Below are positions 1 through 41,883 of a DNA stretch of 41,883 nt, piece after piece; position 1 is the stretch's first letter; each line of letters starts with the position of its first letter. The notes under the pieces are model-generated. The model made no database searches, was not told where the DNA came from, and saw nothing but the letters and a program-made list of their open reading frames with translations. Source of the stretch: an uncultured bacterium (GTDB taxonomy: Bacteria; Verrucomicrobiota; Lentisphaeria; Victivallales; UBA1829); the NCBI GenBank assembly GCA_949290385.1, contig CASERY010000089.1, positions 1-41,883 on the forward strand, in the 5' to 3' direction. Both the position numbers and the translations under genes were made by a program.

Positions 1-513
1 CTGTACCGCAGGCAGTCCTTTCCAGACTACGGTTTTGAAATCATATCGGACAATCTCAGAATTGTTTTCCATATTTTTTTCAAGAAATTCCTTGAACTCT
101 TCCATCCTTACGACATAAAGAGGCACTTCAAAACAGTAGGCAACACCTGCAAAAGTCTGGCCGAACGGAAGTTTATCTTGAGTCCGCCACAGGACAAAAT
201 CTGCGGTATTTTCATTCACCGGTGCAATCAGACTGCTATTTTCAGCAGGAACATGAATCCGGAAATCACGATAATCCACCCATTCAAATCCGGAGAAATC
301 ATAGTATCCTACATGTTCATCCGTCCATTTTACCTTATCCCAGGGAATATTCTGACTCTGAACCTCATAGGATGATTCCAAATGCCTGCATGAAATCGCA
401 GTACAAAGCAAAACTGAAACTGCAGCAAGGAATAAAACTTTACTGAAGATTTTCTTCTCATGCTGCATAGACTCTGCAGCATAAAAACGATTCTTTCCTG
501 TTTCGTATTTCAT
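1..513 (-). CDS. Putative lipoprotein, N-terminal part (runs off left edge)
   Basis: The frame is open from an ATG at 513 to the first base of the window, 171 codons without any stop. The N-terminus has a basic stretch (HEKKIFSK), a hydrophobic core (VLFLAAVSVLLCTAIS) and a Cys, which fits a lipoprotein signal peptide. A second ATG (MQHEKK) at codon 16 would give a signal of more usual length, but the upstream ATG has GAGG 11 bases before it. The mature part is rich in aromatic and charged residues (for example YYDFSGFEWVDYRDF) and I do not recognise the family. It probably sits anchored in the envelope. The 3' end and any in-frame TAG beyond the edge cannot be seen. Confidence 0.7.
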   Translation of the reverse strand, partial: MKYETGKNRFYAAESMQHEKKIFSKVLFLAAVSVLLCTAISCRHLESSYEVQSQNIPWDKVKWTDEHVGYYDFSGFEWVDYRDFRIHVPAENSSLIAPVNENTADFVLWRTQDKLPFGQTFAGVAYCFEVPLYVVRMEEFKEFLEKNMENNSEIVRYDFKTVVWKGLPAVQ

Positions 514-740
514 TTTGATATTCGTCCTCTTTGCAAGTCCGCTTAAACGGCAGAAAAAGTCTTCGAACTGCTCCCCTCAGCTGAAATAATTTTTCTCAGC
601 AGATGCACATTTACAATCTTCCAAGCTCTTCTGAATTTTGCTCTGATTGGGGACAGGACAGAGAACAGTCGCCGTACCCAATCAGATTCACGATCTTTCC
701 AGAAGAGAAAACACTCCCTGAAAAAATCAGAAAAGGCATA

Positions 741-1694
741 TCAGTAAGCAGAATCTGGGAAATAGTTTTCTTCCGCATTGGACACATCAATCACTTCAGC
801 AGGAACAACCAGCCGCGCCTGAGATGCCTGACCGCCACGGGTCAATTTCAGACCTTCTTCTGCCGCCACATAAATCATTCTGGGTGGATATGTCACTGTA
901 AGCGGTACAAGACTGTCCCCTGACATAATTCTTTTGATAATTGCCTTGCTTCCACCGCCGCCAATAAAAAAATCAATATCGCTGCGACCGGATTCCTCAT
1001 AGGCTTTCAAGGCACCTGCAAGCACATCATCATCTCCGGTCCATACAGCATCAATTTCCGGGAATTTCTGCAGAAAGTTCTCCATCAGTGTCAGGCCCTT
1101 TTCGGTACTCCAGTTTGAAGCTCCGCTGGCCATAATCTCAATTTCAGGATAATTCTTCATCACTTCACGAAAAGCCTCTACACGATCAGTGTTCACCTGG
1201 CATGGAACTCCTTCCATAATCACAATGCGGCCTTTCCCGTTCAGTCTTTTTGCCATGGCTTCTGCTGCAGTGCGTCCGAATCCAGGATTGTCTCCAGCAA
1301 CCATCACATCCGCGATATTTTCAGGAAGTCCACGATCCACCACCACAAGCTTCACACCGGAATCCTTGACTTTTTTGCAGACATTCAGCAACGGCTCCGG
1401 TTCATTCGGAAGCACCACCAATGTCTTGATACCCTGAACCAGCATTCGTTCGATCTGATCCACCTGCTCTGCAGAATCTTTTGCTGAAGAAACAATGACT
1501 TTTACATCCGGATTTGCCTTCTCCAGATCCTGTTTTGCCTGCTGAGCCCAGTAAACCACTCCACCGGTCCAGCCATGATCGGCGCTTGGAATGGAAATTC
1601 CGATCTTGATCTCAGCAGAGTCCTTGCTGCATGCAGTCCCGAGAAACACAGCTGCTGCCGCGAGAAACAAGGCTGCAAAAATTTTCATTTTCAT
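741..1694 (-). CDS. Sugar ABC transporter substrate-binding lipoprotein (type 1 periplasmic binding protein, RbsB/YphF-like)
   Basis: The 317-residue protein starts with a lipoprotein signal (MKMKIFAALFLAAAAVFLGTAC), so it should be tethered outside the inner membrane and deliver a sugar to the permease. KIGISIPSADHGWTGG, the DQIERMLVQGIKTLVVLP segment, VVVDRGLP and AGDNPGFGRTAAEAMAKRL are typical of the ribose/galactose binding family (Peripla_BP_4). The length is normal and there is no in-frame TAG. It is the last gene of an ATPase-permease-binding protein operon; its ATG overlaps the permease TGA (ATGA). The natural stop is TGA. The exact sugar cannot be named; YphF-like proteins are the closest type I recall. 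Confidence 0.92.
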   Translation of the reverse strand: MKMKIFAALFLAAAAVFLGTACSKDSAEIKIGISIPSADHGWTGGVVYWAQQAKQDLEKANPDVKVIVSSAKDSAEQVDQIERMLVQGIKTLVVLPNEPEPLLNVCKKVKDSGVKLVVVDRGLPENIADVMVAGDNPGFGRTAAEAMAKRLNGKGRIVIMEGVPCQVNTDRVEAFREVMKNYPEIEIMASGASNWSTEKGLTLMENFLQKFPEIDAVWTGDDDVLAGALKAYEESGRSDIDFFIGGGGSKAIIKRIMSGDSLVPLTVTYPPRMIYVAAEEGLKLTRGGQASQARLVVPAEVIDVSNAEENYFPDSAY

Positions 1695-2701
1695 GATGCA
1701 TGATCCTTTCTCTGGATTAAAACAGAAATTATGATAACTAAACCTTTAACCGTCCCCTGAAGGTTGACGGATACACCCCACATGTCCAGGATATTGGACA
1801 CAATCCCCAGAATCAGCACCCCGCCAAGAGTCCCCCACAGAGACCCGCGGCCGCCGGACATGGCAGCCCCGCCAATAATCACGGCGGCAATGGCATCCAG
1901 TTCATAAAGCAGTCCTGCGTTGGATGAGCTCACGGAACTCAGGCGTCCCACAAAAAGAAAAGCGCTGATTCCCACACAGAGTCCAATTACTGCATATGTC
2001 AGAAACTGAGTTCTTCCTGTATGGATTCCGGCATACCGCGCCACCCGCTCATTGGAACCGACAGCACAAACATGACGTCCGAAAGATGTCTCCGACAACA
2101 GAACCCCTAAAACAGCAGTCAGCAGCAGCATAATAAATGCAGGAGTCGGCAGGAATCCGAATACAGAAGAACTTCCGAAATCACTGATTACAGGATTCTC
2201 CGTAGAAAGAGTCCCGGCATCTGCAAAATACAGCGACAGTGAACGAAAGATGGAATATGTTCCCAGAGTCGCAATAAACGGCGGAAGTTTTCCCAGTACA
2301 ATCACCGCTCCATTGATAAGGGCTCCCACAAGCCCCGTCAGCACCGAAACAATCGCCGCAATCAGGAATCCCGTCAGATCCGAACCGGGCAGAAATCCTT
2401 CCATCGACTGCATTACCCATGGAGTCACATGATTTGCCGCCAATACGGAAAAAACTCCACATAAAGCAAACAGTGACCCCACGGAAAGATCAATGCCTCC
2501 TCCCACAATGACAAAAGTCATTCCCAGGGCAATCATGCCGCTGTAGGAAACCTGTCTCAGGATATTAATCAGGTTTGCAGGCTTCGCAAATACGTCATTC
2601 GTCAGCGCACAGATCAGAAACAGCACAATCAGTGCGAGGTAAGGCCCGCCAATACAGCGAAAAACCTTTTTCCATTTTTCAGACGGGGTCAATTCGATCA
2701 T
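1691..2701 (-). CDS. Sugar ABC transporter permease (RbsC-type)
   Basis: The 336-residue integral membrane protein has 8-10 hydrophobic segments and the hallmark motifs of the BPD_transp_2 family: GMTFVIVGGGIDLSVGSL near residue 60 and the conserved IAAVIIGGAAMSGGRGSLWG loop near residue 270, which contacts the ATPase. It forms the transmembrane channel of the sugar importer. Both ends are coupled to neighbours by four-base ATGA overlaps, with the ATPase upstream and the binding protein downstream. It contains no in-frame TAG and has the normal family length. Confidence 0.93.
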   Translation of the reverse strand: MIELTPSEKWKKVFRCIGGPYLALIVLFLICALTNDVFAKPANLINILRQVSYSGMIALGMTFVIVGGGIDLSVGSLFALCGVFSVLAANHVTPWVMQSMEGFLPGSDLTGFLIAAIVSVLTGLVGALINGAVIVLGKLPPFIATLGTYSIFRSLSLYFADAGTLSTENPVISDFGSSSVFGFLPTPAFIMLLLTAVLGVLLSETSFGRHVCAVGSNERVARYAGIHTGRTQFLTYAVIGLCVGISAFLFVGRLSSVSSSNAGLLYELDAIAAVIIGGAAMSGGRGSLWGTLGGVLILGIVSNILDMWGVSVNLQGTVKGLVIIISVLIQRKDHAS

Positions 2702-4170
2702 TTTTTCACTCCGGTTGCTAAATACATCATTTCTTTCTCATTCACCTGATCATCCCGGACCTCCCCGGCCAGACAACCGTCACGCATGACAAGAACCCGG
2801 TTGCAGTTTCCGATAATCTCCTGCAAATCCGAAGAAATCAGCAGACAGGAAATTCCTCGATCCGCCAGTTCATGAATCAAGCGGTAAATATCCCCTCTGG
2901 CCCCCACATCCACGCCTCGGGTCGGCTCGTCAAAAATAAAAATGTCCGGTTGCGTATCCAAGCCTTTTGCAATTGCCACCTTCTGCTGGTTGCCCCCGCT
3001 CAGATGACAGAGCAGATCCGCTGTGGAATTCATTTTTGTCTCAAATTTTTCCGCATACGCTCCAGCTGCATTCCGACATTCTTTCTTTCGGATGAAAAGC
3101 CATCGGCAGTAACGGCTCAAAGACGAAAGGGTCGTATTCCATTCTACAGATGCACCTGTCAGGATGGCAGTCCCCTGGCGGTCTTCGGAAAGATAGGATA
3201 ATCCAGCTTTCATGGCATCTGCCGGACAGTGAAAGTGCTGTTCTTTTCCATGAACAAAGATTTTCCCGCCTGTCCTCCTCCGCAGTGCGCAGATGGTTTC
3301 AGCGACTTCTGTTCTACCGGCACCGGCCAGACCTGCCATTCCGAGAATTTCTCCCCGATGCAGCACAAAAGAAACGTTTCTGACGGCCTTTCCTGAACTT
3401 AAATTTTCCACACGCAAAGTTTCCGGAGCGTCTTCCGGCACTTTCTGTTTCGGAGGAAATACCTGACTGAGCTCACGCCCGACCATCAGTTCCGCCAGTT
3501 CTCGACTGCTTACCTTTTTAGCATCTCGATCGGCAACCAGGACTCCGTCACGCAAAACCACAACCTCATCACAAATCTCACGCACTTCATCCAGTTTATG
3601 GGAAATAAAAATAACCGAACCGCACCGCTCTGTAAATTCCCGCATAATGCCGAAAAGAATTTCCGTTTCATCCCGGTTCAGCACAGTCGTCGGTTCATCC
3701 ATAATAAGAATCCGGCTGTCTTCCAGAAAGGCCTTGGCTATTTCCACCATCTGTTTTTCCGCCACGCTCAAAGCTGAAACCATTTCCTCCGGATCAACAG
3801 TACTGTGCAGACGTTTCAGAAGCTCTTCTGATCGTCTTCTCATCTTTTTTTTCTGCAGAAATCCGAATTTTGTCTATTCACGGCCAAGGTAGATGTTCTC
3901 CCGGACCGTCAAGGCTGGAATCAAAGTAAATTCCTGTGGAACTGCATAACATTTTCCATGAAGACAAATTTTTCCGGAATCACAACGGTGAATTCCGCTG
4001 ATACATTTTACCAGAGTGGACTTACCCGCCCCATTTTCTCCAATCAGCCCCAGTATTCTGCCGGGTGGAAGAGAAAAGCTGATCCCTTTGAGGACTGGAA
4101 CCCCGTCAAAAGATTTTGCTACATTGCAAACGTCCAGCAAAGAATGTTTTAAAGGCTTCTGAGATTCCAT
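2698..4170 (-). CDS. Sugar ABC transporter ATP-binding protein (RbsA/MglA-type, two ATPase domains) with one in-frame TAG
   Basis: This is a 490-codon protein when TAG at 3874-3876 (residue 99) is read as sense; the family is about 495-500 residues. Domain 1 has Walker A GENGAGKST (residues 41-49), a Q-loop region PQEFTLIPALTVRENIYLGRE, then X and TKFGF; a signature-like LSVAEKQMVEIAKAF and Walker B ILIMDEPT follow after the TAG. Domain 2 has the usual degenerate P-loop (GLAGAGRTE), the signature LSGGNQQKVAIAKGL and IFDEPTRGVDVGAR. The TAG therefore lies between Walker A and the signature of one nucleotide-binding domain, so the two halves cannot work as separate proteins. Reading on in the same frame gives a normal member. 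It is first in the operon, behind a good promoter at 4214-4242. Confidence 0.93.
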
Positions 4171-4540
4171 GGATCATTGACACTCTGGTTCGGTTGTTTT
4201 TTGATAGCAGAATAATATAAAACACGGCAGAGGGAATTTCAAAAAAAACCGAATAATCTTTATCTTTTTTTGTCCATGGTTTGCAATGACTCCAGTGCAG
4301 ACTACATTATAATTGCCGGAGGTGCCGCCCGGATCAGTTCTGCTATTCATGTCTCCCGTATTTGTCGTATGGCCGAATTAGTATAATCTGTCCGTTTTGC
4401 CTGTGCCTAAATAACAGGCCTGCCACGCCTTCCGGGAGAAACTTGAAAAGGTCTGACTGGAACCCATTTTCAAACTCTTCTGAACATATACTCTACGGGT
4501 CAGACTTTAAATCTCATTTACTTTCTTGAAAGGACAACTC
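4171..4540. other. Divergent intergenic region between the sugar ABC operon and the dehydrogenase gene
   Basis: No gene is visible. Besides the minus-strand promoter it holds a TATAAT (4382-4387) that could serve the dehydrogenase, although no convincing -35 lies at the right distance. It also holds an inverted repeat GCCTGT/ACAGGC (4399-4404 and 4414-4419) just downstream of that box, where an operator might lie. The regulator is unknown. Confidence 0.4.
4214..4242 (-). promoter_or_regulatory. Sigma70-type promoter of the sugar ABC operon
   Basis: On the minus strand TTGAAA (4237-4242) and TATATT (4214-4219) are separated by exactly 17 bases. Transcription would begin near 4207, giving a leader of about 37 bases before the ATG at 4170. 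Predicted by eye only. Confidence 0.5.
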
Positions 4541-5494
4541 ATGAGCAGACTGGTAATCCTCGACGAATACGACGCCAATTTCGATCATATTATTCCAGCA
4601 GATTATTTCTCTGAATGCGCCGATGAAATCGTAATTCGCGCCTCGACAAAACCGCAGGAACTCCTCTTCGCCGCTGCAAACGCCAGTTTTCTCATCACAA
4701 ACAAAGTCAGAATAGATGCTTCTGCCATTGCCGGGCTTCCGCATCTGCGCTATATCGGTGTACTTGCCACAGGGTACAATACAGTTGATGTTAGGGCTGC
4801 CCGGGAGGCAGGCATTACAGTAACCAATGTACCGTCCTACAGTTCTTCCAGTGTTGCTCAGCTGGTGTTTGCCCATCTGCTGAATCTCTGTCGGGAAGTA
4901 CAGCTCCACTAGGAAAGCGACTGGACACAATCCAAAACCTTCTGCTATACGCTTACCCCTCAAACAGAACTGGACAATCTCACCTTCGGCATTCTTGGAT
5001 TTGGCGATATTGGAAGACAGGCGGCACAAATTGCTCAGGCGTTCCATATGAAAGTAATTGCCTGTACCCGGACCCCCTCCAGGATCGACCTTCCAGAGGT
5101 CTGTCCAGTAGATATGGATACCCTTTTCAGAGAAAGTGATGTCCTCTCTCTCCACTGCCCACTCACAGACTCCAATGCAAAAATTATCAACCAGGAAAAC
5201 CTGGCAAAGATGAAAAAAAGTGCCATTCTGATCAATACTGCACGTGGAGGACTCATTGACGAGACAGCCCTGGCTGATGCTTTAAAGAACGGAACTATTG
5301 CCGCCGCCGGACTTGATGTTCTTTCTGAAGAGCCGCCCTCCCCGGATAATCCCCTTCTCCATCTGAAAAATTGCCGGATCACACCTCATATTGCCTGGAT
5401 TACCTCTGCCGCCCGAAAACGGCTCTGGCAGACAGCCAAGGACAATCTTCTTGCATTTACACAAGGCCATCCAGTCAATGTTATTTGCAACTGA
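4541..5494 (+). CDS. D-2-hydroxyacid dehydrogenase (glycerate/phosphoglycerate dehydrogenase-like) with one in-frame TAG
   Basis: Read through TAG at 4910-4912 (residue 124), the gene encodes 317 residues, the usual length for this family. The substrate-domain N-terminus (MSRLVILDEY, LATGYNTVDVRAARE, VPSYSSSSVAQLVFAHLL) precedes the TAG. The NAD-binding Rossmann part follows it: FGILGFGDIGRQAA (GxGxxG), LSLHCPLT, INTARGGLIDE with the catalytic Arg, GLDVLSEEPP with the catalytic Glu and TPHIAW with the catalytic His. Neither fragment alone could be an enzyme. The ATG at 4541 has AAAGGA six bases ahead; a TTG five codons upstream is less likely. It should reduce or oxidise small 2-hydroxy acids such as glycerate/hydroxypyruvate in the cytoplasm. 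The stop is TGA. Confidence 0.93.
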
Positions 5495-5927: not shown

Positions 5928-6677
5928 TTAATTAAAGTCCGCACCGCATTTCTGGTGGTCAGTCTGTTCTTCATAGTACAGCTCACCACGAGTTTCGCCT
6001 CTGCCGAAATAGGCGATTTCTTCTCTGCAAACCTCTTCACGAGCGTTAGCATTGCGGCTCTGGACAGATCCATCACCGAACAGGAAGTTTGCGGTACCGA
6101 CAGTTGTATCATAACCAACTGTCTGAGTCCCATTGTAGTCGCTGTCTTTAGCAGCGCCGTGTCTCCAACGCATAGACCAGTCTTTGCAACGCAGACGGTA
6201 CGGACCATAGCCGTCACCAACCCAGATGGCTCCAGGATAGCGATCGGTAGATCCAGCGGCGAACAGAGCAACGTTCGGAGAGAGGTTGCAGTTATCCACA
6301 ACTTCGCTTTCGTTGTAAGCCGGGCAGCAGAAATAGGAAACATCCTGCATAAGACCTGTAGCAATCAGGAACTGGCCATAAACAATACCAGTCCATCTGT
6401 TAGTTGCAGGATCAAGAAGCTTTCCACATCTGTTCAGCCAGTCGCCATAGCTTTCGCCGTAGTTCGGGCCCCATGCACCATCGACCTAGTAGGGAAGACC
6501 ATCATAATCAATGGAGTACTGAGCCAGAGCAAGACCAATCTGTTTCTGGTTGCTGACACATTTAATAGCTTTAGCTTTGGCTCTTGCAGATCCAAGAGCA
6601 GGGAGAAGCATACCGGCCAGGATCGCGATGATCGCAATCACAACCAGCAGCTCGATCAGGGTGAAATGTTTTTTCAT
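5928..6677 (-). CDS. Pseudopilin with prepilin N-terminal motif and C-terminal DG motif, with one in-frame TAG
   Basis: The 249-residue protein begins with the class III signal [20 protein letters not shown], cleaved after a short basic leader and methylated at F. This is the hallmark of the many pseudopilins in Lentisphaerae and Verrucomicrobia. The TAG at 6486-6488 (residue 64) follows [10 protein letters not shown]. The same frame then gives [24 protein letters not shown] and [13 protein letters not shown], the last matching the H-x9-DG C-terminal motif of the family. With TAG as stop only a 63-residue stub would remain. It should be an envelope or secretion pseudopilin. It stands alone, with a perfect promoter 50 bases upstream and its own terminator, so it is probably strongly expressed. 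The natural stop is TAA. Confidence 0.93.
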
Positions 6678-7226: not shown

Positions 7227-7712
7227 TTACTTTTTTTCTTCCGGCAGAACAGGGGAATTCGACTCTTTCACAGATCGGGAAGACTCTTCGCCACTCATCA
7301 ATGGCCCGTCTTCATGATCTTCTTCAAACGCCGTCCCGAGGGAAGGAAGTTCAACAACCGCAATTCCCCGGCGCATCAAATTCCCTACGAACTGAAGGAT
7401 CAGGGCCCTGGCCTCAAAAAAAGAAAGTTTTTCAGTGTCCTGCAGATAACGAATCAGTTCAATCAGACGCCTTGGCTTTTCACGAATCATACGAAATATT
7501 TTCAGACTGAAATCTGAAAGAATATATTTCCGGTAGTCCCGAATCGGAAAAACCTTTGAATACAGCTTTGCAAAACCTTTCAGCTGAAGAGATATTTTCA
7601 GGCGCACATAATCCTCTCCCTCAGCTTCCACGCAGGCTTTGCGGTTGTACAGCACTACAGACTCCAGCTGCTCATAAAAGTTTACGGTAGGACCTTTTTT
7701 CACGGATTTCAT
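7227..7712 (-). CDS. PqqD-like protein, last gene of the exporter operon
   Basis: The 161-residue product starts at an ATG overlapping the TGA of the preceding gene (ATGA, 7709-7712); longer frames upstream are not needed. The middle (FPIRDYRKYILSDFSLKIF, then the SFFEARALILQFVGNLMRRG helix region) resembles the winged-helix PqqD family, small proteins that present peptides to modifying enzymes or occur as regulatory domains. The C-terminal 30 residues are acidic and Ser-rich, probably disordered. There is no in-frame TAG and the stop is TAA. The link to peptide modification is inference from the fold; no radical SAM or precursor-peptide gene is seen here, and it may instead be a structural part of the neighbouring ABC system. 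Confidence 0.65.
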   Translation of the reverse strand: MKSVKKGPTVNFYEQLESVVLYNRKACVEAEGEDYVRLKISLQLKGFAKLYSKVFPIRDYRKYILSDFSLKIFRMIREKPRRLIELIRYLQDTEKLSFFEARALILQFVGNLMRRGIAVVELPSLGTAFEEDHEDGPLMSGEESSRSVKESNSPVLPEEKK

Positions 7713-8620
7713 CTGATTTTCTCCGTCAGTTTCTTGTGAAACACATCCCGCACAGATTCCCTGCCCTTGATAAAGTGCGGCGCAATGTGCTCCATTCCGT
7801 AAATCCGATTCTCTCCCGGTACAAGGAACGCATATCCGGAACCTTTCCACCAGGGCCCCAGAACAAAATCAAATCCAAGTTTTCCGCGAGTTCTGAACTG
7901 GATCATTCCCCCGGAATGCCCTGCAATATCCATGTTCGTCTGAACTTCCTTCACCGCATAATGTTTTTTATACAAATAACGGTGATAGAAATTCCCTGCC
8001 GTTGCCCCCTGCATCAGGATATCCGCCATACCCCAGCGATGGGCAGTCAGCCTGAAATGACGCTTGTTTTCAAAGGTCATTCCCACCTATGCAGGATAAG
8101 CTTCAATGGATATCAGTTCATATGCCTCCGGAATACTGACTTCCAAGCCGAACATGGCATACTCCACACGTCCGTTTTCCGGATTGTTGTCGGAATAAGT
8201 CTGAAGCATTCCTATCACTTCAGCAGCAGCTTCCCGTGAGTAGCAGGGAAAAATCCATTCATTCAGCATCTATGCTTCCATATTAAATACAGAAGCATAA
8301 AAACGCTCTCCGGGTCTCGTATGAGCCAGAATTACCTGTCCACGATCACCATGGCGCGTAAAACGGATCTGCGGCATGGTCTCCAGCCCCAGCTCTCTGC
8401 GGTGAATCTCTTCCAGAATTCTTGGAATATCCGGAACAGCTTTCACTTTCCGATAGCTGAATTCGCCTTTAGCTCCATGCTCCGTACTGAACGAAAGAGA
8501 TCCCTTCTTTTCTCCCAGGTAATACCCAACCGTCTCCCAGTTTCTGGGAAGCGTGAAGGCAAAGCCCCTCCATGCCATTCTGAACGGAGGATGATGAAAA
8601 TGCTCACCCTCGCTCATCAT
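7709..8620 (-). CDS. Hypothetical protein of the exporter operon with two in-frame TAG codons
   Basis: The frame gives 303 residues when TAG at 8270-8272 (residue 117) and 8087-8089 (residue 178) are read as sense. I do not recognise a named family. The protein seems to repeat one module: WRGFAFTLPRNWETVGYY...GSLSFS near residue 15, and FGLEVSIPEAYELISIE...VGMTFENKRHFRLTAHRWG near residue 155. Both halves show a beta-strand pattern of the form FxxxxPxxW/Y followed by L/MxF. The start (ATG pair at 8620/8617) overlaps the end of the upstream ATPase gene by about 14 bases and the TGA overlaps the start of the PqqD-like gene, so it is translationally coupled on both sides. That makes decay by three separate stops unlikely. 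It is probably cytoplasmic, as no signal peptide is visible. Confidence 0.8.
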
Positions 8621-9341
8621 GGATGGATCCCGTATCAATGTGCAGGTCCTCACGGCATTCTACACGGTCAATCTGTCCCTGGTCAATCCACACAATTCTT
8701 GTGGATGCATCCAGCATTCGATGATCGTGTGTCGCGGATATCACGGTAACCCCGAACTCTTTGGTCAGATTCTTGAAAATATCAATAATGCCCGCTCCTG
8801 TTTTCAGGTCCAGGTTCGCAGTAGGCTCATCTGCAAGAAGAATGGTAGGATTATTGGCAAGAGCACGTGCAATGGCCACACGCTGCTGCTGTCCTCCGGA
8901 AAGTTCCAGCGGCTTATGTGTCAAACGTCCATGCAAGCCCACGAATTCCAGCAGTTCTGCGGCACGTTTCTCCGCTTCCTTGCGGCTTTTTCCCAGAAGA
9001 ATCTGAGGCATTGCAGCATTGTCCAGCGCAGTCAGATGCGCCACCAGATTATAGCTCTGAAACACATAGCCGATATAAGCACAGCGGAAATACGCCTGCT
9101 CCAAAGGCTTCAGCTTCGGCAGAGAAACTCCACCAATGCTGATCTCGCCCCCGCTGGGACGGTCCAGTGCACCAATCATGTTGAACAGGGTGGATTTCCC
9201 GGATCCGGAAGGCCCCATGATTGAGATATATTCCTTCCGGTAAATCTCCAGATTAATGCCTCTCAAAGCGTATACGGCCTATTCGCCCCGCCCGAAGACT
9301 TTACTGACATTGCTGATCTTAATAAAAGGTTCTGTTTCCAT
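8604..9341 (-). CDS. ABC transporter ATPase (MacB/LolD-type) with one in-frame TAG near the N-terminus
   Basis: The true start is the ATG at 9341 ([20 protein letters not shown]), which has AGGAAGG ahead of it. TAG at 9279-9281 is residue 21 of 245. A standard-code annotation would start at an internal TTG and lose the first strand. Motifs: Walker [11 protein letters not shown]-loop [14 protein letters not shown], signature [15 protein letters not shown], Walker [13 protein letters not shown] and H-loop SATHD. In the paralogous ATPase of this operon (16220-16999) the TAG position aligns with Glu ([10 protein letters not shown] against GRGEXAVYAL). It should power one of the FtsX-type permeases of the operon in lipoprotein or small-molecule export. 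Confidence 0.93.
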
Positions 9342-9360
9342 TTTTTCCTTCCTAACCGCG

Positions 9361-31402: not shown

Positions 31403-34400
31403 TTACAGGAAATCCGGGATCTTCAGGTATTCATCGCCATACCCCAGTGTCAGGATAGACAGCGTACCGCTGAATAAATTCCATGAGTTTCGAATCATAA
31501 AGGAAGGAATAAATTCAGGGATGCTCCAATCCGGTTCATTCAATGGTCCATAATAATGCAGTGGAAACACGACTCCGGATAAAACCGTTTCAGACTTCAC
31601 ATCCATTCTCCTTGTGAAGAAATTGATCCATCCCTCCGTAATTCCAAGCTCGATCATAGGGCCTTCCAACAGGAATTCACGGATCCAGCATTTACCGTCT
31701 GTCTCCTCCAGAACCACGTGTCCTTTACTGAATTCCAGCTTTCTTCTTCCAGTAATCAGATCAAGATTGCTTGCCAGTACCTGCTGTAAAAGACCTTTCA
31801 CACTTCCATCCGGCAGCTGGTCTGCCAAGCGGGGAATAACGTCCAGAGGGAAGAAAATAATTCTGAACAACAGAATGGTTTCATCCCGCATAAACGGCAT
31901 CACCAGGTTCTCGACATCAAAAGAAATGCCGGACTGCAAATGCTCTTCCAGCGCTTTTCTTGAAAAACCTTTGCCGCTGCCGGTAAAACTCACATTCCGC
32001 AATTTCCCCTGGTATTGTTTTTTCCACGCTTCACTGGCCTGCAGAAATGTTTGAATAAACGGCTGAATATCAAATTGGTCTGCTTTCAATTGGAATGAAA
32101 ATGGCCAGATTTCGGATGAATTACAAAACAGCCTCATGTTGAATGAAAACGAATCTTGATCATTGATCCTGCCGGACAAGCCGTCAATGGAAACAAGGCG
32201 GTTTCCGGAAAAATCCGCAGACCCGTTCAGAGAAAACCTCAGACTGTCGCCCCAGTGCAGATTCTCCAGTGCAATATGTATTTTTTTACAGGAATCCGGC
32301 CCTGTGGTCTTTTCCAGTCCGAATGCAAACGGTATTTCCCTCGTTGTCTTCTGAAACTGCCCTGAAACTGCAGCAAGAGTTCCTTCAGAATTTCTGCCGG
32401 AGGGGAAAAACGGGATTTTTCCTTCTGAATCATCCCGGTTGAATACATTTTCTTTCATCAGTACATTCTGCTGAACATTCCACAATGACGGATACAGAAT
32501 ATTGGATAAAGTAAATGAATTTTTCAGCGATACGATCTCTTTCTTCCATAGATTCGTTTCTGAAGGCACAGTCTCTGCTGTTTCAATGCGCTCTCTGGAA
32601 GTTAAAACATCTTTCAGGAACTGTAAATCCAGTCCGTCGGATACAAGTGATCCCTCTTCAGATTTTCTGTTCTGCCCGGCTCCGTCTCTTCCGTTTTCAT
32701 CTGGGAAAGGACGATAGGGATTCACATGATCCAAACTCAAATGCACCAGTCTTCTGCCTGAATTTTTTTCTTCAAGCATCAGCGAGGAATCCCGAATCTC
32801 AAAACTTCCACCATTCTCATACTGGAAATCCAGACTGACTCCACCTTGAAAAGCTGTCCACTTTTCCGGAGACACTGTTTCCGGGGTTGTCAGGATCTGC
32901 CCCTGCCGAATATCCCAGTCCGAATGAAACGCTCCATCCAGGTAATCCTTTGAACAGAACAGTACAGCTTTTCCGGCAATTACAAGGTCCCGGATCCGGC
33001 AATATTCCGGAATAAGGGGAACCATGATTCTCAACAAATTTTCTGTAGCATGGTCTACGGAAAAATGGAATTCGGCGCTGAAATCATATTTCAGATAAAG
33101 TTTTGCATCTGTGTAAATTTCTGCATAAGGGACGTTTTCCTCCAGCAGGACGGTCTTCAAATGACGGATTTCATAAAAACGAAAGAAATCCGTGAAAGCG
33201 CTTTTCCCGGACATTGCACAATCTTCCATCTGGTACACATGTCCGCAAATGTCAAGAGCAAGCCCCTGGATCTCCAGTTGAGAATCCAGCTCGATATCCC
33301 GGGAATGTCCGTCCACCCCTGTAAACTGTATACTTCCATTCACCAGTCCTCCATCCAACATAAAGTAGAGATTCTTTTTCCACAGTGCATTCAAACTTTT
33401 GACAGGAAAATTCCGGATCTGCCCATCTCCGGCAATTGCATTATGCTCCAGGGTGCGCAAATTGATCTGGAATGTAGATAAAGGCTTTTGAAAAAGCAGG
33501 ATTTCTCCGTCAGGAGCTCCCGAAAGTACACATTTTCCATTCTGAATTGAAACGGTTCCGTCGCCGGTATTGTAAATACTGCTGAAGGATCCACTCAAAT
33601 TTTTAAAATCCAGCTGATTCGCCGTCCTCTGATAATACTTGGAACGAAGCGGCTATACCGCAACAAGTCCTCGGATCAGCTCGGGCTTGAGTTCCGATAC
33701 AGACAAGCGACTCTTCACCTGTCCTGAGACGAAATCCCATGCAATGCTGGCATTTCCTTTTAAAACGCCTTCCTGCAAAAAATCAATTTCCTGATCCAGC
33801 AGCTGACGCCGATTCAGCAGAGAAAGAGTTCCTTTGGAATTCAGCTGTACTGGAGCCCAGGCATTGTTCGAACCGGCCTTTCCCAGAATATTCAGTCTGG
33901 ATTTTTCCTGGAAAGAAAGCATCATTGTCTTCCAATCCATATCCGACTGGAAGGCCACTCCCAGATTCAGCGCAGCTGCATCCGTTTCTGAATACTTGCC
34001 CAGGAGTCTCTGAGAAAGAGGATCCTTCAAAATGCGAAGCAGTGAAAGGACCTCTACTTTGGTGCTGCCTTTCAGAGAAGTCCTTGCCTGCAGGAAGTCA
34101 TGGCGTCCGTGGAATACAGCATGCTATACGAGGCTGTTTCCGGAAGTCAGGTCCACACTCATTTCAGGGATCAGGAATCTGGAAATCTTCTGAAGACCGA
34201 GACTTTCAAAATGAAGTTCTGTCTGGAGTCTGCTTTTCTCAATCAAGGGCTTTCCTGCTGAAGTCAGCACAAATCCACTCAAATCCCCTTTGGCAATACC
34301 CGCAATTTTTTTCAGTTCTGAATCGGCTTTCATCCTTGCATCAATGTTTAGAATGCCTCCCTGAAACTGCAGCGGAATGACCGGAAGAATTTCATCTGCA

Positions 34401-35791
34401 TTCAAATCCTGAATCTTCAGATTCAAACAGGCATTGTTCGCCTGAATATTCAATGCATCAAACGATGTCTCAAACAGACGGACCGGACCTGCAGGCATTT
34501 GCAGAAGCAGTGTTCCTTCATTGTTTAAAGTCAGAAATTTTTTCCCGTCCAGAGAACTTTCAATCTGCAAAGATTCTGTTTTCAGAAGTCTGTCCGGGAA
34601 TGAAACCTCTCCTGAAGTCTGAAGCTGAAGCTCCGTATTCTTCAAAAATGACTGGTCTGCATAAACGGCATTTTGAAGCAGAGCATTCCAGCGGACAGAA
34701 TAATACAGTTTGTCATTTTTCAAATTCAGGACGGTCTGGCTGCTGCATTGAAGATTCTCCAGCGAAACCGGAAGACGCCCGATGACAGGAAGCGACGAAC
34801 AATAGGGCAGTTCCGCTTCTGTTTTAACGGTCAGCTCCGCTTCGCGGTTTTCCAGGGAGAAAACTCCTTCCGCCTTCATGTGAATTCCTTTAAATGGACC
34901 GATTGTCTGGGTCAGCTCCGCCTGGCGCAATTCGATCTTCGTCGGATCCGATTCCGGGCGGACAGCTTCTACATATGCTTTCATTTCCAGTGGATAGGAA
35001 TCATGAAGAATTTGAATACCATTGCGGTATTCCCTGTCCAGAAGTCCTCTCCCGCTTACAGAAAGTTCGAAATGCTGCGGGATCCAGTTCTTTCCAAGCC
35101 TGTAGGAAGCATTCAGATGAATTGGCAGAGAATGTACTTCCCAGAAACCCAAAGTCTCCGCTGAAAAATTCATGGATGCCGTAATCGATCCCTCTTCTCC
35201 CGGAATCAGTCCACTGCATTGCAAATTTTTCAATTCAGTGTGCAGAAACAGATCCGGAGCATATTCATAGTCGAGCGAAAAGGTCTGAATTTTCACATTG
35301 CCCAGTTGAACTCCGGAAAAGAGTTCAGGCAGTTTGAATGTGATTTCATCTGCTGGTACATTTTCTGTTTCTTGTTTCCCCGGATTAAAGCCGAAGCGCA
35401 GTCTTGCATCATAAATTTCAATATCATCCAGATAAACAACTTGGGAAGCAATTAAGGAACCCCAGTGGATTTTTCCGGAAAAATCTTTGCATTCCAGAAT
35501 ATTCCGCCCTGAAAAATCCTCTATATGCAGACTTTTTATTTGAAGACTTCCACTCCTGCCCAGCAAAGAAAAACTGATTTTCTCAGCATGAATTCTGTAT
35601 CCTGTCCAGCGTGAAAAGGCCGGAAGATAAAAGTTGCGGATACACCAGCTGCTCGTTAAAAAAATGTACAGGAAACAAAGCAATGCTAAGATTGAAAGCG
35701 GAATCAACACTTTCTTCGGCGATCGTTTTCCGAACAGCCGCTGCTTCAAGTTCCGACAAAATGCCTGCAATATTTTCTGCCATTTCTGCAT
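31403..35791 (-). CDS. Large AsmA/YhdP-like envelope protein with two in-frame TAG codons
   Basis: One frame of 1462 residues from ATG 35791 to TAA 31403, interrupted only by TAG at 34124-34126 (residue 556) and 33653-33655 (residue 713). An N-terminal anchor helix (VLIPLSILALLCFLYIFLTS, residues 28-47) is followed by AsmA-like text (GYRIHAEKISFSLLGRSGSL, LQIKSLHIEDFSGRNILECK). Long repeats of short beta strands follow, as in the bridge-like AsmA/TamB/YhdP proteins that move or organise phospholipids between the two membranes. The C-terminus has the family-like RKLEFSKGHVVLEETDGKCW and VFPLHYYGPLNEPDW segments. Under the standard code it would be three pieces, two without an anchor. AGGAAA precedes the start. 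Confidence 0.88.
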
Positions 35792-36374
35792 GAATGTTTT
35801 CCTGAATATTTTTTACAGCGGTCCATGCACTGTAAGGATCTGCGTCCAATTCGGAAGAAAAAGCGACTCAATGCCTTCTCTGCGTGAAAATCATGAACCC
35901 GATGAATTCAGAAGACAGTCAGACACAGGAGATTTCCGGATTCTGCAGATGAAATTTTTCCAGAAAGATATCGGGTACCCTGTTCGTCATCAGCGCAATA
36001 AGCGAATCCGGATCAGAAAGACTGTCTTTCTTCCAGGATTTTCCAATGTTTCTGCAATGGGTGTACAATAGCACGATTTTACAAATTAACAAGATATTTC
36101 TCTATGAAATTCAAGGACAAAAGGAAATGCCTCCGTCATGATTTTTCCCTGTGTTTTCTCAAAAAATGAATTGAAAAAAGCTGAAAAGCGTCTTTATTAT
36201 AATAGTAATTAATCTTGTTCCGTATAGCTGTCCGTTATCCCCGGGCGTCCGCAGATTCTCCGCTGTCTTTCTTTTCTCCAAAACTGAGAGACTCTGGACA
36301 AATCCGACAGTCCGGTCAGAAAAAAATCCAGTGCAGTGATCCGGATCTTAGAATCTAATCAGGAGATTTTCAAA
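35792..36374. other. Intergenic region between the divergent AsmA-like and SecD-head-like genes
   Basis: About 580 bases. One small plus-strand frame (35871-36089) is possible and listed separately. TATAAT at 36198-36203 may be the -10 of the downstream genes, but the nearest TTGAAA is 21 bases away. No other structure was seen. Confidence 0.4.
35871..36089 (+). CDS. Doubtful small basic protein with one TAG
   Basis: From ATG 35871, crossing TAG at 36069-36071, to TAA this gives 72 residues (MPSLRENHEPDEF ... RNKRIRIRKTVFLP). Codon choice resembles the neighbours and GGAAG lies upstream, but no family is recognised. Not counted among the firm TAG genes. Confidence 0.25.
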
Positions 36375-36947
36375 ATGATGAAATTTCAATGGCAAACCAT
36401 CCGGAAACGCATTCTGCTTCCCATGGCAGTTCTCTGCTGTGCGGTTCTTTCCATGGGCGTGGAACAATGTGCCCTGGATGAAGACGCAGACTGGCTTGCT
36501 CCGCTGATGGAAGAAGGCGATGTTGAACCCCCTAAAGCAGTCATAACCATTCATTCCATTATCAAATATCCATCTGGGAACACCTCGCTGGAACAGAAGA
36601 TACAAAGTTATTCAGGTCAGGCTGTCTATGTGTAGTCTCTGGCGATGATCTCCTCCAAAGACATTGAGGAAATCAAGATTGAACCCAGAGCCAGTGATCC
36701 GGATATGTACGATCTGCATTTGTATCTGACGGAACGCGGCAGAAAAATGTGGATAGGTCTCTCCGTCCCAAACAGAAATACCGAACTGGCTTTTGTGGTG
36801 GATGGACTGATGTACCGGAAGTTCATCCCCCGAATGCTTTACGACGATTCCACGCGGGATATTATTGTAGACGGACCTTTTGATCCGGCAACGGCTCAGG
36901 AAATTTAGAACAATTCCAGACGCACGTATAGAAAATTGAACCGTTGA
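36375..36947 (+). CDS. SecD-P1-head-like envelope protein (copy 1) with two in-frame TAG codons
   Basis: The 190-residue product starts at ATG 36375 behind AGGAG and has an N-terminal export signal (RILLPMAVLCCAVLSMG). The C-terminal half (YDLHLYLTERGRKMWIGLSV, ELAFVVDGLMYRKFIPRMLY, IIVDGPFDPATAQEI) follows the pattern of the SecD/SecF periplasmic P1-head domain: LxxxLTxxGxxxW, then LAxxxDG, then the xGxF helix. TAG codons are at 36633-36635 (residue 87) and 36906-36908 (residue 178). The second sits in the last helix, where the paralogue at 37054 has Gln (DKVQYYSRFNY against QEIXNNSRRTY). Reading on gives 12 more residues to a TGA. It may act in the envelope near the Sec system, but no partner is seen here. 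Confidence 0.85.
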
Positions 36948-37053: not shown

Positions 37054-37806
37054 ATGATCAATCATTCATCTTCCGTCCTCAGAAGATTCCCTGCCCGGAC
37101 TCTTCAGCGGGGTCTTTGCCTTCTGGCATTGCTTGTTCCGGGCTGTTCTTTTTTGCAGGAAGGATCAACAGTTCAATCCGGATCGTCCTTTTCGGATCAG
37201 CATGTCTACCTTTCCAGTCAGCCCATCTATACTGTCTCCATTCATGCTCTCCCTACGCTGGATACGCCGGAAAGCGAAATTATCAAAGCAGATTCCTTTT
37301 TTGACGGGACCGTGCAGGTCGTCGACAAATCCCTCATCGACTACACCGACATTTCTCTGATTTCTGCTTCAGAACGGCCCGGAGAGCCAGGCTTCTACAA
37401 TCTTTGCTTTGAATTCACGCCTGAAGGACGGGCTCGCTGGGATGAACTTTCCCGCAGTAATGAAAATCGCAGTCTGGCTATCCTGATTGACGGAGTCTTC
37501 TATCGGGCCTTTAAACCCCGGATCTTTTACAGCAGTACGGCACAAAGCATTATGGTGGATGGTCCCTTCGACTGCATTGTTGCCGACAAAGTTCAATACT
37601 ATTCCAGGTTCAACTATCAGAAACATCAGAAACAGGAAGCTGCAAGGGAAAAAGCTGTGCAGACGGAAGAACGGCAGGAAACTCTCCAGACCACGGTCGG
37701 TATACCTGCAGAAAATGGTCTGAATGTTTCAGAAACATCCTAGGAATCATCTGTCACAAAATCTTCTGATTCTTCGCAGACGAACCCGTAGGAAGCCGCC
37801 CTCTAA
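37054..37806 (+). CDS. SecD-P1-head-like lipoprotein (copy 2) with two in-frame TAG codons
   Basis: A 250-residue lipoprotein: the signal ends LLALLVPGC and the following residues are Ser/Gln-rich. The folded part (YNLCFEFTPEGRARWDELSR, SLAILIDGVFYRAFKPRIFY, IMVDGPFDCIVADKVQYYSR) is clearly paralogous to the gene just upstream and has the SecD P1-head pattern. TAG at 37741-37743 and 37789-37791 (residues 230, 246) lie in a low-complexity tail (NVSETSXESSVTKSSDSSQT, then NPXEAAL) that ends at TAA 37806. Here read-through is supported only by the absence of TAG stops elsewhere and by tail composition, so the exact end is less sure. The two copies form a tandem duplication. Confidence 0.82.
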
Positions 37807-37990
37807 TATAAAAGCATTCCAGCAGACACTCCAACTGCAAGGATCTGCATCATAATCATCAATAAAGATGGTTTTCTTCCGGATTGATTTCTGCGTGAAT
37901 TCCGGGACATTTCATACTATGAAGGGAACCAGAACGCTTTCATACCGAAATGTATCAACCGTCTTTCTAAAACAATACTCTATCTACATC

Positions 37991-39226
37991 ATGAACAAAA
38001 TTCAGCTTTTCCGCAATGCCTTTCAGGAAAATTCCGGAGCCCGGGCATTTTTTCTGAGTATTCTCGTATGGGGAATCGGCGTAGGATCCTTTTAGGCTTA
38101 GCTTAACAACTTTCTGTCTGATATTTACCGAATGGATGAATTCGACCGGGGATGGCTTGAATTTTTCCGGGAGCTGCCCGGATTTGCCCTGGTTTTTATT
38201 CTAGCTCTTCTCAACCGAATGAGCGACTGGAAAATCATGCGTCTTGGCGTACTTGTTTCCATGGCAGGTGTTATCTTTCTTCTGATTCCGGAAAACAAAT
38301 GGTTCGTTACGGCACTCATCATGGTCTGGAGCATGGGGGAACACCTGGTCATGCCTGTCCGAAATGCCATAGCCATGCAAGTGGCCTCCCGGGGAAAGGA
38401 AGGACAGTCTCTGGGATTCCTGACTGGTGCCATGAATATGGGATCTGTGGCAGGCAGCATTCTGGTAGCCATTATTTTCTACCTGGGAATACACTTTTTC
38501 CATATTGATGAAAAAAGAATGATTTATAACTTCTTATGGATTTTTATCTTTCTTCTTTTGGCCATCAGTATTATATGCACATTTTCCAAAAATGCGCCGA
38601 ACAAGCCATCCCGCCGTCCGAGATTGTATTTTCATAGAAAATTCAGAAAATACTATGCCCTGGAACTTTTCTACGGTGCACGAAAACAAATTTTTCTCAC
38701 CTTTGCCCCCTATGTTCTGATTCGAGTCTACGGCTTTGATACAGCACAAATGGCTCTTCTTCTGGGCATCTGTGCCGCAGTCAATATCTTTGCCGGGCCG
38801 TGGATCGGACGCATTACGGACAGATTCGGATACAGGAACATTATGATTTATGATACGGTTATTTTGTTTTTTGTATGTCTGATGTACGGCTATGCAGGAG
38901 ACCTTTTTTCTCCGGGAGTAGCCTTTGCACTGGTATGCGTCAATTTTCTGCTGGATGCTGTAATCAGTACAACAAGTCTTGCGACAAACCTGTATATCCG
39001 TGAGATCTCCACAAGCGGAGATGAACTTACCTCCACCATGTCTACGGGAATATCCATCAATCATCTGATTGCGATTCTTTCCGCACCGCTCGGCGGATGG
39101 ATCTGGCAGCGGTTCGGAGTAGGTACATTGTTTACTTTCGCAGCAGTGATGGCTGTCTGCAATTCTCTCTTTGCCATGACGCTGCCCAAGCCGGGGACAG
39201 CGGCAAAAGCCGGGAAGTCCGCATAA
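37991..39226 (+). CDS. Major facilitator superfamily transporter with two closely spaced in-frame TAG codons
   Basis: The 411-residue membrane protein has about 12 hydrophobic segments. TAG codons at 38093-38095 and 38099-38101 (residues 35 and 37) lie at the end of the first helix: LVWGIGVGSF, X, A, X, LNNFLSDIYRMDEFDRGWLE. The LNNFL and RGWLEFFRELPGF text after them is typical of this MFS group, and the conserved loop GRITDRFGYRNIMIYD occurs mid-protein. Without read-through the first helix and its connecting loop would be lost. No good ribosome site precedes ATG 37991; ATG codons at 37919 or 37868 are possible alternatives. Substrate unknown. The stop is TAA. Confidence 0.88.
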
Positions 39227-39912: not shown

Positions 39913-39913
39913 T

Positions 39914-40155: not shown

Positions 40156-40356
40156 TCAAAAGATACTGACAGAGGAAAAACCGTACCGCTGTGTCCGAAA
40201 GTAAAGGAGTAAAACAGTCATCACCAATAACTCTACAAACACAAAAAGCCGTTGTTTTTCCCGGAATTCGTTGCAATACAGGTTCGAGACGCTATATTGT
40301 CTAGGACCCCAGAAGCCTATATTTTCATTCTGTCTGTTTTTAACCCCGGGATTCAT
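40156..40356 (-). CDS. Doubtful small ORF with one hydrophobic segment
   Basis: A 66-residue frame (ATG 40356 to TGA) with a hydrophobic stretch (FVFVELLVMTVLLLYF). No ribosome site and no recognised family; it overlaps the longer version of the neighbouring frame. It may be chance. Confidence 0.2.
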   Translation of the reverse strand: MNPGVKNRQNENIGFWGPRQYSVSNLYCNEFREKQRLFVFVELLVMTVLLLYFRTQRYGFSSVSIF

Positions 40357-40377
40357 AAAAAGGTTTTTTATCTGTTT

Positions 40378-41193
40378 ATGAGCGACTTAGTCAAACTTGA
40401 ACACGTTTTAGGCATTGCCTTTCACAACCGGCATCTACTGAAAGAGGCCATGACCCATAAATCCTTTGCCGCTGAACATAAAATTCCTTATGACAATCAA
40501 CGGCTTGAACTTCTGGGGGATGCAGTCCTTCAAATTGTCATGACCCGGTATTTGTTTGACCGTTATCCGGATCTTCAGGAAGGAGCTCTCACCCAGATAC
40601 GCTCTGCGCTGGTCAATCAGGATTCGCTGGCTGAATTTGCCCGGAGCATTGATCTGGGACATTACCTGATGCTTGGAAAAGGGGAACGCGAGTTAAACGG
40701 AAGTGACCGGGATTCAACCATTTCCGATGCCTTTGAATCTTTTACCGGAGCTCTGTATCTGGATCAGGGGCTTGAAAAAGCTCAGGATTTTTTTCTTTCC
40801 ATTCTATTGAAACATTATCCGGATCCTGCGGAAACCCTTACCACACTGAATCCTAAAGGGGCTCTTCAGGAATATACGCAGAAAATTGGAGCCCATGTTC
40901 CACAGTATAAAGTTCTTTCTGTATCTGGTCCCGATCACAATCCTCGTTATGAGGTCCAGGTTTCCATTCGGGAGATTCCTGTGGCATCCACCGTTGCCTC
41001 CAGCCGAAAGCTGGCAGAACGCGATGCGGCCAAAAAAGCTCTTGATCTTCTGAAAAGACACGTTATCTCCCTTGAGGCCCCATCCTCCGGGAAAAATCCC
41101 GACAGCCAAGAAGACCTGCACCGAAAACAGAAAAATGAAGACGACAAATCATCCTCTGCACCGCATATATCTGACATTCCTGTGAAATCTTGA
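40378..41193 (+). CDS. rnc: Ribonuclease III
   Basis: The 271-residue protein starts at ATG 40378 (MSDLVKLEHVLGIAFHN); the frame is open further upstream but family alignment begins here. It has the RNase III signature NQRLELLGDAVLQIV with catalytic Glu and Asp (residues 40-55), the second metal motif SDAFESFTGALYLDQG near 120, and a double-stranded RNA-binding domain (NPKGALQEYTQ to SRKLAERDAAKKALDLL, about 160-230). A charged tail of about 40 residues (SGKNPDSQEDLHRKQKNEDD) is longer than usual. It cuts structured RNA in rRNA maturation. No in-frame TAG; the stop is TGA. It is followed 17 bases later by the alcohol dehydrogenase gene. Confidence 0.95.
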   Translation: MSDLVKLEHVLGIAFHNRHLLKEAMTHKSFAAEHKIPYDNQRLELLGDAVLQIVMTRYLFDRYPDLQEGALTQIRSALVNQDSLAEFARSIDLGHYLMLGKGERELNGSDRDSTISDAFESFTGALYLDQGLEKAQDFFLSILLKHYPDPAETLTTLNPKGALQEYTQKIGAHVPQYKVLSVSGPDHNPRYEVQVSIREIPVASTVASSRKLAERDAAKKALDLLKRHVISLEAPSSGKNPDSQEDLHRKQKNEDDKSSSAPHISDIPVKS

Positions 41194-41210
41194 AAAGGAG
41201 AAATTCTGCT

Positions 41211-41883
41211 ATGAAATCCTATACCGTAACCCTGCCTCATCGCATTCTTTTCGGGTGCGGTTCCTTAAATTCTCTGCATTCTGAAATTCCCGCCTGTTGC
41301 AAACGGATTCTTCTTGCCGTTGGCACCCATGCTGTCCGTTCCGGCCTTGCTGAGCGCATTCAGGAACAACTGAAAGATGCGGGTGCAGAAGAAGTCCAGA
41401 TTATTTCAGGCATTGCAGCAGAACCCCCGCTGGAAGATGTAGACCGTCTCATAGAACACGGGCGCTTCATGCAGGCACAGGCGGTAGTTGCTGCAGGCGG
41501 AGGAAGTGTTATGGACGCTGCGAAATCGGCAGCTGCATTGATTCCGCAGAGCGGTTCCTGTTCCGACTATTTTTTCGGACGGGAAAAAATTTCTTCAAAA
41601 GGTCTGTTCTTTGCTGCTCTTCCCACAACAGCCGGAACAGGCGCAGAAATGACCAACAATGCAGTTTTAACTGACAAGACAAGCCGCATCAAACAGTCCT
41701 TAAGGAGTCCATACATGGTTGCGGATCTGGCCCTGGTAGACCCGGAACTGACCTTTGACTGTCCGCCTTCCCTGACAGCATCCAGTGGACTGGATGCCCT
41801 GGTCCAGGCAGTAGAATCTTATACGAATCCAAAAGGTTCTGTTATCAGCAAAGCGCTGGCTCTCAAAGCGGCAGAACGCATCT
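41211..41883 (+). CDS. Iron-containing alcohol dehydrogenase, N-terminal part (runs off right edge)
   Basis: The frame from ATG 41211 (AAGGAG ten bases ahead) stays open for 224 codons to the edge. It carries the family's N-terminal fold: MKSYTVTLPHRILFGCGSLN, AVVAAGGGSVMDAAKSAAAL (the GGGS NAD-binding loop), ALPTTAGTGAEMTNNAVLTD and SGLDALVQAVESYTN with a metal-binding His position replaced by Gln (family DAxxHxxE, here DALVQAVE). It probably reduces an aldehyde or ketone with NAD(P)H during fermentation. The His-to-Gln change concerns one iron ligand and suggests altered metal use, as in some members of this superfamily. The C-terminal half is outside the window. Confidence 0.9.
   Translation, partial: MKSYTVTLPHRILFGCGSLNSLHSEIPACCKRILLAVGTHAVRSGLAERIQEQLKDAGAEEVQIISGIAAEPPLEDVDRLIEHGRFMQAQAVVAAGGGSVMDAAKSAAALIPQSGSCSDYFFGREKISSKGLFFAALPTTAGTGAEMTNNAVLTDKTSRIKQSLRSPYMVADLALVDPELTFDCPPSLTASSGLDALVQAVESYTNPKGSVISKALALKAAERI

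Follow-up and report, generated by a model that had tools for sequence, protein, structure and literature searches.

Predicted use of UAG as a sense codon, likely for glutamine, in an uncultured Victivallales bacterium in which no prfA was found

Introduction

UAG is read as glutamine in ciliates and in some phages. In bacteria, UGA has become tryptophan in Mycoplasmatales and several insect endosymbionts and glycine in Absconditabacteria and Gracilibacteria, and these bacterial changes are tied to release factor 2 (RF2). Here we analyze a stretch of 41,883 nucleotides (referred to as the window) from an uncultured bacterium of the order Victivallales (GenBank assembly GCA_949290385.1, contig CASERY010000089.1, our contig C89), together with the genome bin to which it belongs, which comprises 2.68 Mb in 168 contigs and is 78.5% complete with 2.0% contamination. 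In this genome TAG is found within genes and hardly ever terminates them, and prfA, the gene for release factor 1 (RF1), is missing from its expected place. We consider it probable that UAG has come to encode an amino acid, likely glutamine, by codon capture.

The described systems nearest to this one share some of its features. Genetic code 15, found in some phages and eukaryotes, has UAG as glutamine; it resembles the present genome in that UAG is sense, UAA and UGA are stops, and glutamine is the best-scoring meaning. It differs in that we are dealing with a cellular bacterial chromosome in which no prfA was found, no CUA suppressor transfer RNA (tRNA) was found in the assembled part, and TAG is rare and avoids conserved glutamine positions. 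Because TAG does not behave like a glutamine codon at those positions, and because a CUA tRNA may or may not lie in the unassembled part, we treat the case as a distinct form of stop-codon reassignment rather than as an ordinary instance of code 15. The UGA reassignments are likewise natural stop-to-sense changes in bacteria, but here UAG and RF1 are concerned instead of UGA and RF2.

According to the introduction of PMC8629427, all known bacterial changes had reassigned UGA. That paper places most UGA changes in clades of very low guanine-plus-cytosine (GC) content, whereas the bin described here has 46% GC (over 419 kb) and a size of 2.7 Mb. The same paper added arginine-codon reassignments in bacteria, found by Codetta (PMC8629427); these resemble the present case in having been inferred from aligned residues in uncultivated bacteria and differ from it in that sense codons changed there and a stop codon here. 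Engineered Escherichia coli strains without RF1 (PMC6207430; PMC4434889) are also left with a UAG that has no release factor of its own; the present case differs from them in being natural and in having TAG as sense inside genes. Among the open-licence PMC papers listed in literature searches, the changes described for bacterial chromosomes concern UGA or arginine codons, and none of the listed papers has UAG in general use as a sense codon on such a chromosome.

Results

TAG inside genes and at gene ends

The material compared consisted of 40 stretches plus the window, 740,177 bases of the genome in all. As tblastn queries we used the open reading frames (ORFs) of G008, a standard-code relative in the same family that is 97% complete and has a prfA above the cut-off. 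When the best non-overlapping alignments were counted and weaker overlapping high-scoring segment pairs (HSPs) removed, 273 alignments with 90,920 columns contained 97 in-frame TAG codons, as opposed to 12 TGA and a single TAA. The window contributed 23 of the 97, and TAG was present on 24 of the 27 contigs that had alignments. Inspection by eye placed most of the 12 TGA cases at alignment edges or in overruns, with two or three exceptions. In the mirror control, which exchanged query and subject on a smaller set from G008 (61,142 columns), there were 1 TAG, 6 TGA, and 7 TAA. TAG is thus enriched inside genes here and not in G008, with counts of 97:13 versus 1:13.

The same pattern emerged gene by gene: 77 of 251 compared genes (HSPs shorter than 60 residues or below 60 bits excluded) held 112 TAG codons, which were distributed along the length of the genes and numbered at most 6 per gene. 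TAG is used 1.09 times per 1,000 codons, CAG 27.0 times, and CAA 4.3 times; the base following TAG differs slightly from that following CAG (p 0.035), as does the preceding base (p 0.002). With TAG read as glutamine, dnaJ, mreB, recN, recJ, ruvA, and prfB all pass their NCBIfam cut-offs. Codon 42 of prfB, the RF2 gene, is itself TAG, which means that no RF2 could be made if UAG were not read through. The argument for TAG as a predicted sense codon is one from homology: coding density did not discriminate between codes (0.758 for code 11, and 0.813, 0.851, and 0.837 when TAG, TGA, or TAA, respectively, is treated as sense), and a comparison of ORF lengths under the four codes did not make the TAG enrichment visible.

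Pseudogenes, sequencing error, or contamination by phage or ciliate DNA could also place TAG in reading frames; the bin is fragmented, and UAG as a glutamine codon is known from ciliates and some phages. Yet TAG alone is enriched, TGA and TAA are not (which speaks against pseudogenes, the alternative named in the preliminary description, made from the letters of the window), TAG lies in bacterial housekeeping genes, TAA still acts as a stop, and contamination amounts to 2%. In our view the ratio of 97 to 13 and the distribution of TAG among the contigs already refute an artifact of this kind, and we give it virtually no weight.

G016, a relative in whose 72% complete bin prfA was not found, had 1 TAG, 2 TGA, and 2 TAA in 8,405 columns (20 contigs), and for want of TAG enrichment it was rejected as a second recoded relative. 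On contig C70 (L115), two genes near positions 8219 and 10354 that are 88% identical have one TAG in common; at a second site one has TAG and the other TCG. G008 has K and T at these sites.

Gene ends gave the complementary picture. Among 165 alignments to the C terminus (HSPs of at least 80 residues that reached within 4 residues of the end of the G008 protein), 79 genes ended in TAA, 78 in TGA, and 1 in TAG, and 7 had no stop within 20 codons; the sole TAG-ended gene has a TGA three codons further on. The same 165 genes of G008 end in TAA (82), TGA (82), or TAG (1). That TAG forms only 1 of 165 stops in a relative that bears RF1 fits codon capture (the Osawa-Jukes model), in which a codon falls nearly out of use before it changes, as far as the one relative examined can tell. 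The rarity of TAG stops, seen in 60 stretches of G008, may extend through the family.

Release factors and the prfA slot

A search with TIGR00019 found no prfA in the assembled genome; the best match was prfB, with 268.7 bits versus a cut-off of 423. PF00472 matched prfB and one other protein, of 192 residues, which it matched in the GGQ part only. The loss of prfA, which the preliminary description had named as a check on its proposal, is therefore in agreement with what the assembly contains. Elsewhere in the order prfA was present in 124 of 137 genomes (E up to 1e-100) and in all 61 that are at least 90% complete with at most 5% contamination. The 12 other genomes without prfA include 11 that are 54 to 79% complete and one that is 92% complete with 8% contamination.

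The neighborhood of prfA was compared in the 30 best prfA loci of 57 relatives with the gene. In 28 of them (exceptions, G054 and G008) prfA is preceded, in the same orientation and at a distance of up to about 400 bases, by rpmE. Three members of the same family (G002, G010, and G018) have the order rpmE-prfA-ABC transporter, and G008 has glutamine synthetase-prfA-ABC; within the 1.5 kb or less compared downstream of prfA, the ABC gene was not found in the other 26 loci. In the genome under study, contig C43 (L108) carries rpmE at 944-1147, then 402 bases without prfA, then an ABC transporter at 1550-3355, and there is no N in the sequence. This transporter is 48 to 55% identical to those behind prfA in four relatives. 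A profile search of the 402-base gap, with 300 shuffles as control, found no prfA remnant, and short BLAST matches to prfA in the gap were discarded as no better than those of shuffles. The prfA slot behind rpmE thus reads as empty.

The prfB product scores 524.7 bits (cut-off, 370) and has the SPF and GGQ motifs in its sequence. RF2 is predicted to terminate every gene, at TAA and at TGA alike. Four of its residues differ from near-invariant ones of 29 relatives, none of them in SPF or GGQ. In the RF2 comparison the closest genomes, with 82% identity, were G008 and G016, which together represent a single other genus of the family. The RF2 query matched Lentisphaeria and Victivallales bins, several of them titled as coming from the guts of sheep, goats, and yaks.

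Two observations concern other release factor-like sequences. The 192-residue GGQ-only protein (contig C30, L002:1177-1755) is related to PrfH and ArfB and falls below both cut-offs; short GGQ-only matches that resemble it also occur in relatives. The prfA of genus g2 (G001:C352:10354-11442) scored 415.8 bits versus a cut-off of 423.25, the lowest prfA among the matches listed.

The amino acid at UAG and its decoding

For residue inference we used a substitution table derived from the same alignments, with bins by flank conservation, at 87 TAG sites (of the 97, those opposite a gap were excluded). Among the 20 residues glutamine scored highest, with leads of 14.1 log units over lysine and 25.0 over alanine, and under this fixed model 1,000 bootstraps chose Q 838 times, K 95 times, A 61 times, and S 6 times. 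When the method was tried on an earlier, smaller set, it returned the right residue in 1,220 of 1,220 subsamples of ordinary codons, a figure that is optimistic in that the table came from the same data. At the TAG site of prfB, 29 relatives have Q (13), K (10), or R (6); a wider prfB column of 62 loci (Q 26, K 16, R 12, A 4, S 3, and E 1) was set aside because it may include duplicate organisms and some RF1 matches. The DnaJ site has Q in G008, within the stretch SQGFF, and the MreB site has Q in 8azg and R in 4cze. We tentatively regard glutamine as the likely meaning of UAG; the preliminary description had chosen no residue.

Several observations weigh against this interpretation. The residues found at the 87 sites are led by A (16), K (11), and Q (10), and the 10 Q compare with 34.4 (standard deviation 4.2, from CAG) or 31.9 (standard deviation 4.2, from CAA) expected, so that TAG does not occupy conserved glutamine columns as CAG and CAA do, which would be expected of code 15. 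Background composition fits the sites better than glutamine does (log-likelihood of -248.7 versus -263.3). With conservation left free, Q, R, K, P, and H lie within 2.5 log units of one another, and Q is chosen in only 144 of 1,000 bootstraps. In the FtsX-like protein of the window (11331-16223), columns with TAG are dominated by K, L, or A (in 18, 17, and 15 of 19 homologues, respectively), and in a transport protein on another contig, for which there are 69 homologues, such columns hold mostly G or Q, E, and Y or F. Paralogues within the genome show no clear exchange between TAG and CAG: 23 paralogue pairs with good flanks comprised 8 TAG-TAG, 1 TAG-CAG, and 14 with other codons, and some of these frames are probably not genes.

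The same sites leave lysine, or some other single residue, as a candidate meaning in place of glutamine. Lysine is second in likelihood, it occurs at one more of the 87 sites than glutamine does, and Q, R, and K are inseparable when conservation is left free. The bootstraps of the fixed model favor glutamine by a wide count, and we know of no change of UAG to lysine; we consider this reading unlikely.

Codon conservation gives the sites a further property. Read as Q, TAG is matched by the same residue in a fraction of 0.115 of cases (0.18 for A, the commonest), as opposed to 0.366 for CAA, the lowest of the sense codons with enough data, and 0.565 for CTA, which is equally rare. TAG is thus kept away from the most constrained sites.

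The outcome of the search for a decoding tRNA is a further, though weak, point against glutamine. A covariance search found 46 tRNAs in the assembled part, none with a CUA anticodon; ARAGORN assigned anticodons to 45, and the remaining one, truncated at the end of a contig, can be read as tRNA-Glu. The next covariance match (13.7 bits) lies within the transfer-messenger RNA (tmRNA) gene. A loop-pattern search for a CUA tRNA gave 4 matches versus 3 in the reversed control. One of these pattern matches, on contig C164, has a weak likeness to tRNA-Sec (19.4 bits, E 0.97); as we read it, its T-stem is mismatched and it lacks a proper anticodon stem, and it was dismissed as chance; relaxed ARAGORN and a cloverleaf scan produced two low-quality CTA calls and one inverted-repeat match, none of them credible. 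The preliminary description had also named a CUA tRNA as a check, and on this point it found no support among the assembled contigs. We do not count the absence as a refutation because the assembly is 78% complete and other needed tRNAs are missing too. The assembly contains 38 distinct tRNAs and, by our reading, lacks initiator Met, Ile-GAT, Ala-TGC, and Ser-GCT. No living cell can do without these, and a CUA tRNA may therefore lie in the missing part as well.

On the charging side, glutaminyl-tRNA synthetase (GlnRS) passes its cut-off and GatB is present. The two tRNA-Gln genes (L033:301-374 on C104 and L036:301-374 on C83) both have A73, and G73 occurs in the tRNA-Gln(CUG) of G016 and the tRNA-Gln(UUG) of G008. 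G73 is a known GlnRS identity base, and A73 is possibly a lineage-specific change in the glutamine system. TAG is also the codon of pyrrolysine, and tRNA-Pyl can be missed by ordinary tRNA models. A genome-wide pyrrolysine meaning is nonetheless extremely improbable, given that PylS was not found (best match, 20.2 bits versus a cut-off of 178.15) and that the TAG sites fall in genes of many different kinds.

These data allow another reading, in which RF1 has been lost and UAG is formally unassigned, read slowly and ambiguously by near-cognate tRNAs (Gln, Lys, Tyr, and others) and tolerated only where the residue hardly matters. Such a state, which partly overlaps with the explanation that we prefer, would suit the lack of a CUA tRNA in the assembled part, the rarity of TAG relative to CAG, and the avoidance of conserved columns to a greater degree than by any sense codon with enough data. 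It would also suit the better fit of background composition over each single residue computed (Q, K, A, and S), and a mixture fit gave Q 0.23, A 0.23, and K 0.19. Both tmRNA and an ArfB-like protein are present. In RF1-less E. coli, peptides reveal near-cognate suppression with glutamine, tyrosine, aspartate, and valine, and UAG is also resolved by frameshifting and by rescue through tmRNA, ArfA, and ArfB (PMC6207430). Poor decoding would, on the other hand, be costly with TAG in 77 of 251 genes, mreB and prfB among them, and the missing CUA tRNA is weak evidence in an assembly that also lacks at least four indispensable tRNAs. We regard it as possible, though clearly less probable than a glutamine meaning acquired by codon capture, that the cell has neither RF1 nor a dedicated UAG tRNA and that UAG stands between meanings, read mainly through mispairing of tRNA-Gln and only at tolerant sites.

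Two last points against the explanation that we prefer concern the genome itself. Two glutamine synthetases of 710 to 743 residues, on L318 (C32) and L319 (C99), share about 60% identity with the glutamine synthetase located ahead of prfA in G008. On C32 another gene comes next; on C99 only 67 bases remain up to the contig edge, in which a prfA start was not found, and prfA could therefore lie off the contig, in the unassembled part. Furthermore, no second member of the genus was present among the 137 genomes of the order that were searched, so the claim rests on sequence from one genome, in a bin that is 78% complete and broken into 168 contigs.

Genes of the window

The 15 TAG-bearing genes of the window confirm the in-frame TAG codons that had been reported there. 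We counted 34, one of which (8662) falls in the overlap of the frame at 7709-8710 with the ABC ATPase gene upstream and probably precedes the true start, leaving the 33 originally described. As had also been stated, none of the genes ends in TAG (8 end in TGA and 7 in TAA). A Pfam scan with TAG read as Q covered 10 of the 15. In 8 of these 10 a TAG falls within a matched segment or in the interval separating two such segments; in the genes at 8604-9401 and 17024-18517 the TAGs precede the match.

At the start of the window, an RbsA-type sugar ABC ATPase of 490 residues (2698-4170, minus strand) has TAG at residue 99 (highest coordinate 3876), ends in TGA, and matches PF00005 with its best stretch at 27-162. 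The D-isomer 2-hydroxyacid dehydrogenase (4526-5494, plus strand) has TAG at residue 129 (4910) and ends in TGA; it matches PF02826 at 116-290 as well as PF00389, and its alignment to 5tx7 spans 313 residues. A prepilin-type DUF1559 protein with a Pfam match (5928-6677, minus strand) has TAG at residue 64 (6488) and ends in TAA.

There follow on the minus strand several genes that are tied to G008 by alignment. An unnamed protein (7709-8710, ending in TGA) has TAG at 8272, inside the G008 alignment, and at 8089, in addition to the doubtful 8662. The LolD/MacB-like ABC ATPase (8604-9401, ending in TGA, with a Pfam match) has TAG at residue 41 (9281), again inside the G008 alignment. An OPT-type transporter (9361-11334, ending in TGA) has TAG at 11049 and 10554, and the FtsX-like permease protein of 1,630 residues (11331-16223, ending in TGA) has seven TAG codons; both have G008 alignments and Pfam matches. 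The 19 best database homologues of the latter are 1,606 to 1,873 residues long and 35 to 62% identical. These 19 came without source names, and more distant homologues often have PF04389 as well; an FtsX query of genome contigs found no close named relative. A second FtsX-like permease, of 497 residues (17024-18517, ending in TAA, with a Pfam match), has four TAG codons, of which that at 18472 lies inside the G008 alignment. It is followed by a membrane protein of 684 residues (18521-20575, ending in TAA) with one TAG (20215) and by a polysaccharide deacetylase (21567-22463, ending in TAA, with a Pfam match) whose TAGs at 22040, 21809, and 21785 are all inside the G008 alignment.

The remaining genes each have two TAG codons. 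The Gfo/Idh/MocA oxidoreductase (24978-26222, plus strand, TAG at 25485 and 25545) ends in TGA and has a Pfam match. A protein called AsmA-like in the preliminary description (31403-35791, minus strand, TAG at 34126 and 33655) ends in TAA. Two unnamed proteins on the plus strand, at 36336-36947 (TAG at 36633 and 36906) and 37054-37806 (TAG at 37741 and 37789), end in TGA and TAA, respectively, and an MFS carrier with a Pfam match (37868-39226, plus strand, TAG at 38093 and 38099) ends in TAA.

Discussion

With no prfA found and only 1 of 165 gene ends in TAG, the original interpretation of TAG as a sense codon of a bacterial chromosome is supported. We predict that UAG encodes an amino acid because TAG lies inside genes, is rare at their ends, and prfA is gone from its slot. 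The order of events that we propose begins with a family in which TAG was nearly unused as a stop before the change, as shown for one relative. Loss of prfA would then have done little harm, TAG being nearly unused as a stop already. RF2 would have been retained, with termination predicted at TAA and TGA, and UAG codons would have arisen inside genes after RF1 was lost. Decoding is predicted to involve a glutamine-accepting tRNA, which may be a CUA tRNA in the unassembled part; alternatively, the ordinary tRNA-Gln could read UAG by mispairing at the first codon base.

Should UAG instead prove to be caught between meanings, it would represent a natural intermediate stage of a code change, matching engineered RF1-less E. 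coli. If UAG has been captured as a sense codon, loss of RF1 would be possible in nature at moderate GC content. An empty prfA slot, together with a relative in which TAG is almost unused as a stop, makes the order of events testable. For this organism, annotation under the standard code would truncate the genes that bear TAG.

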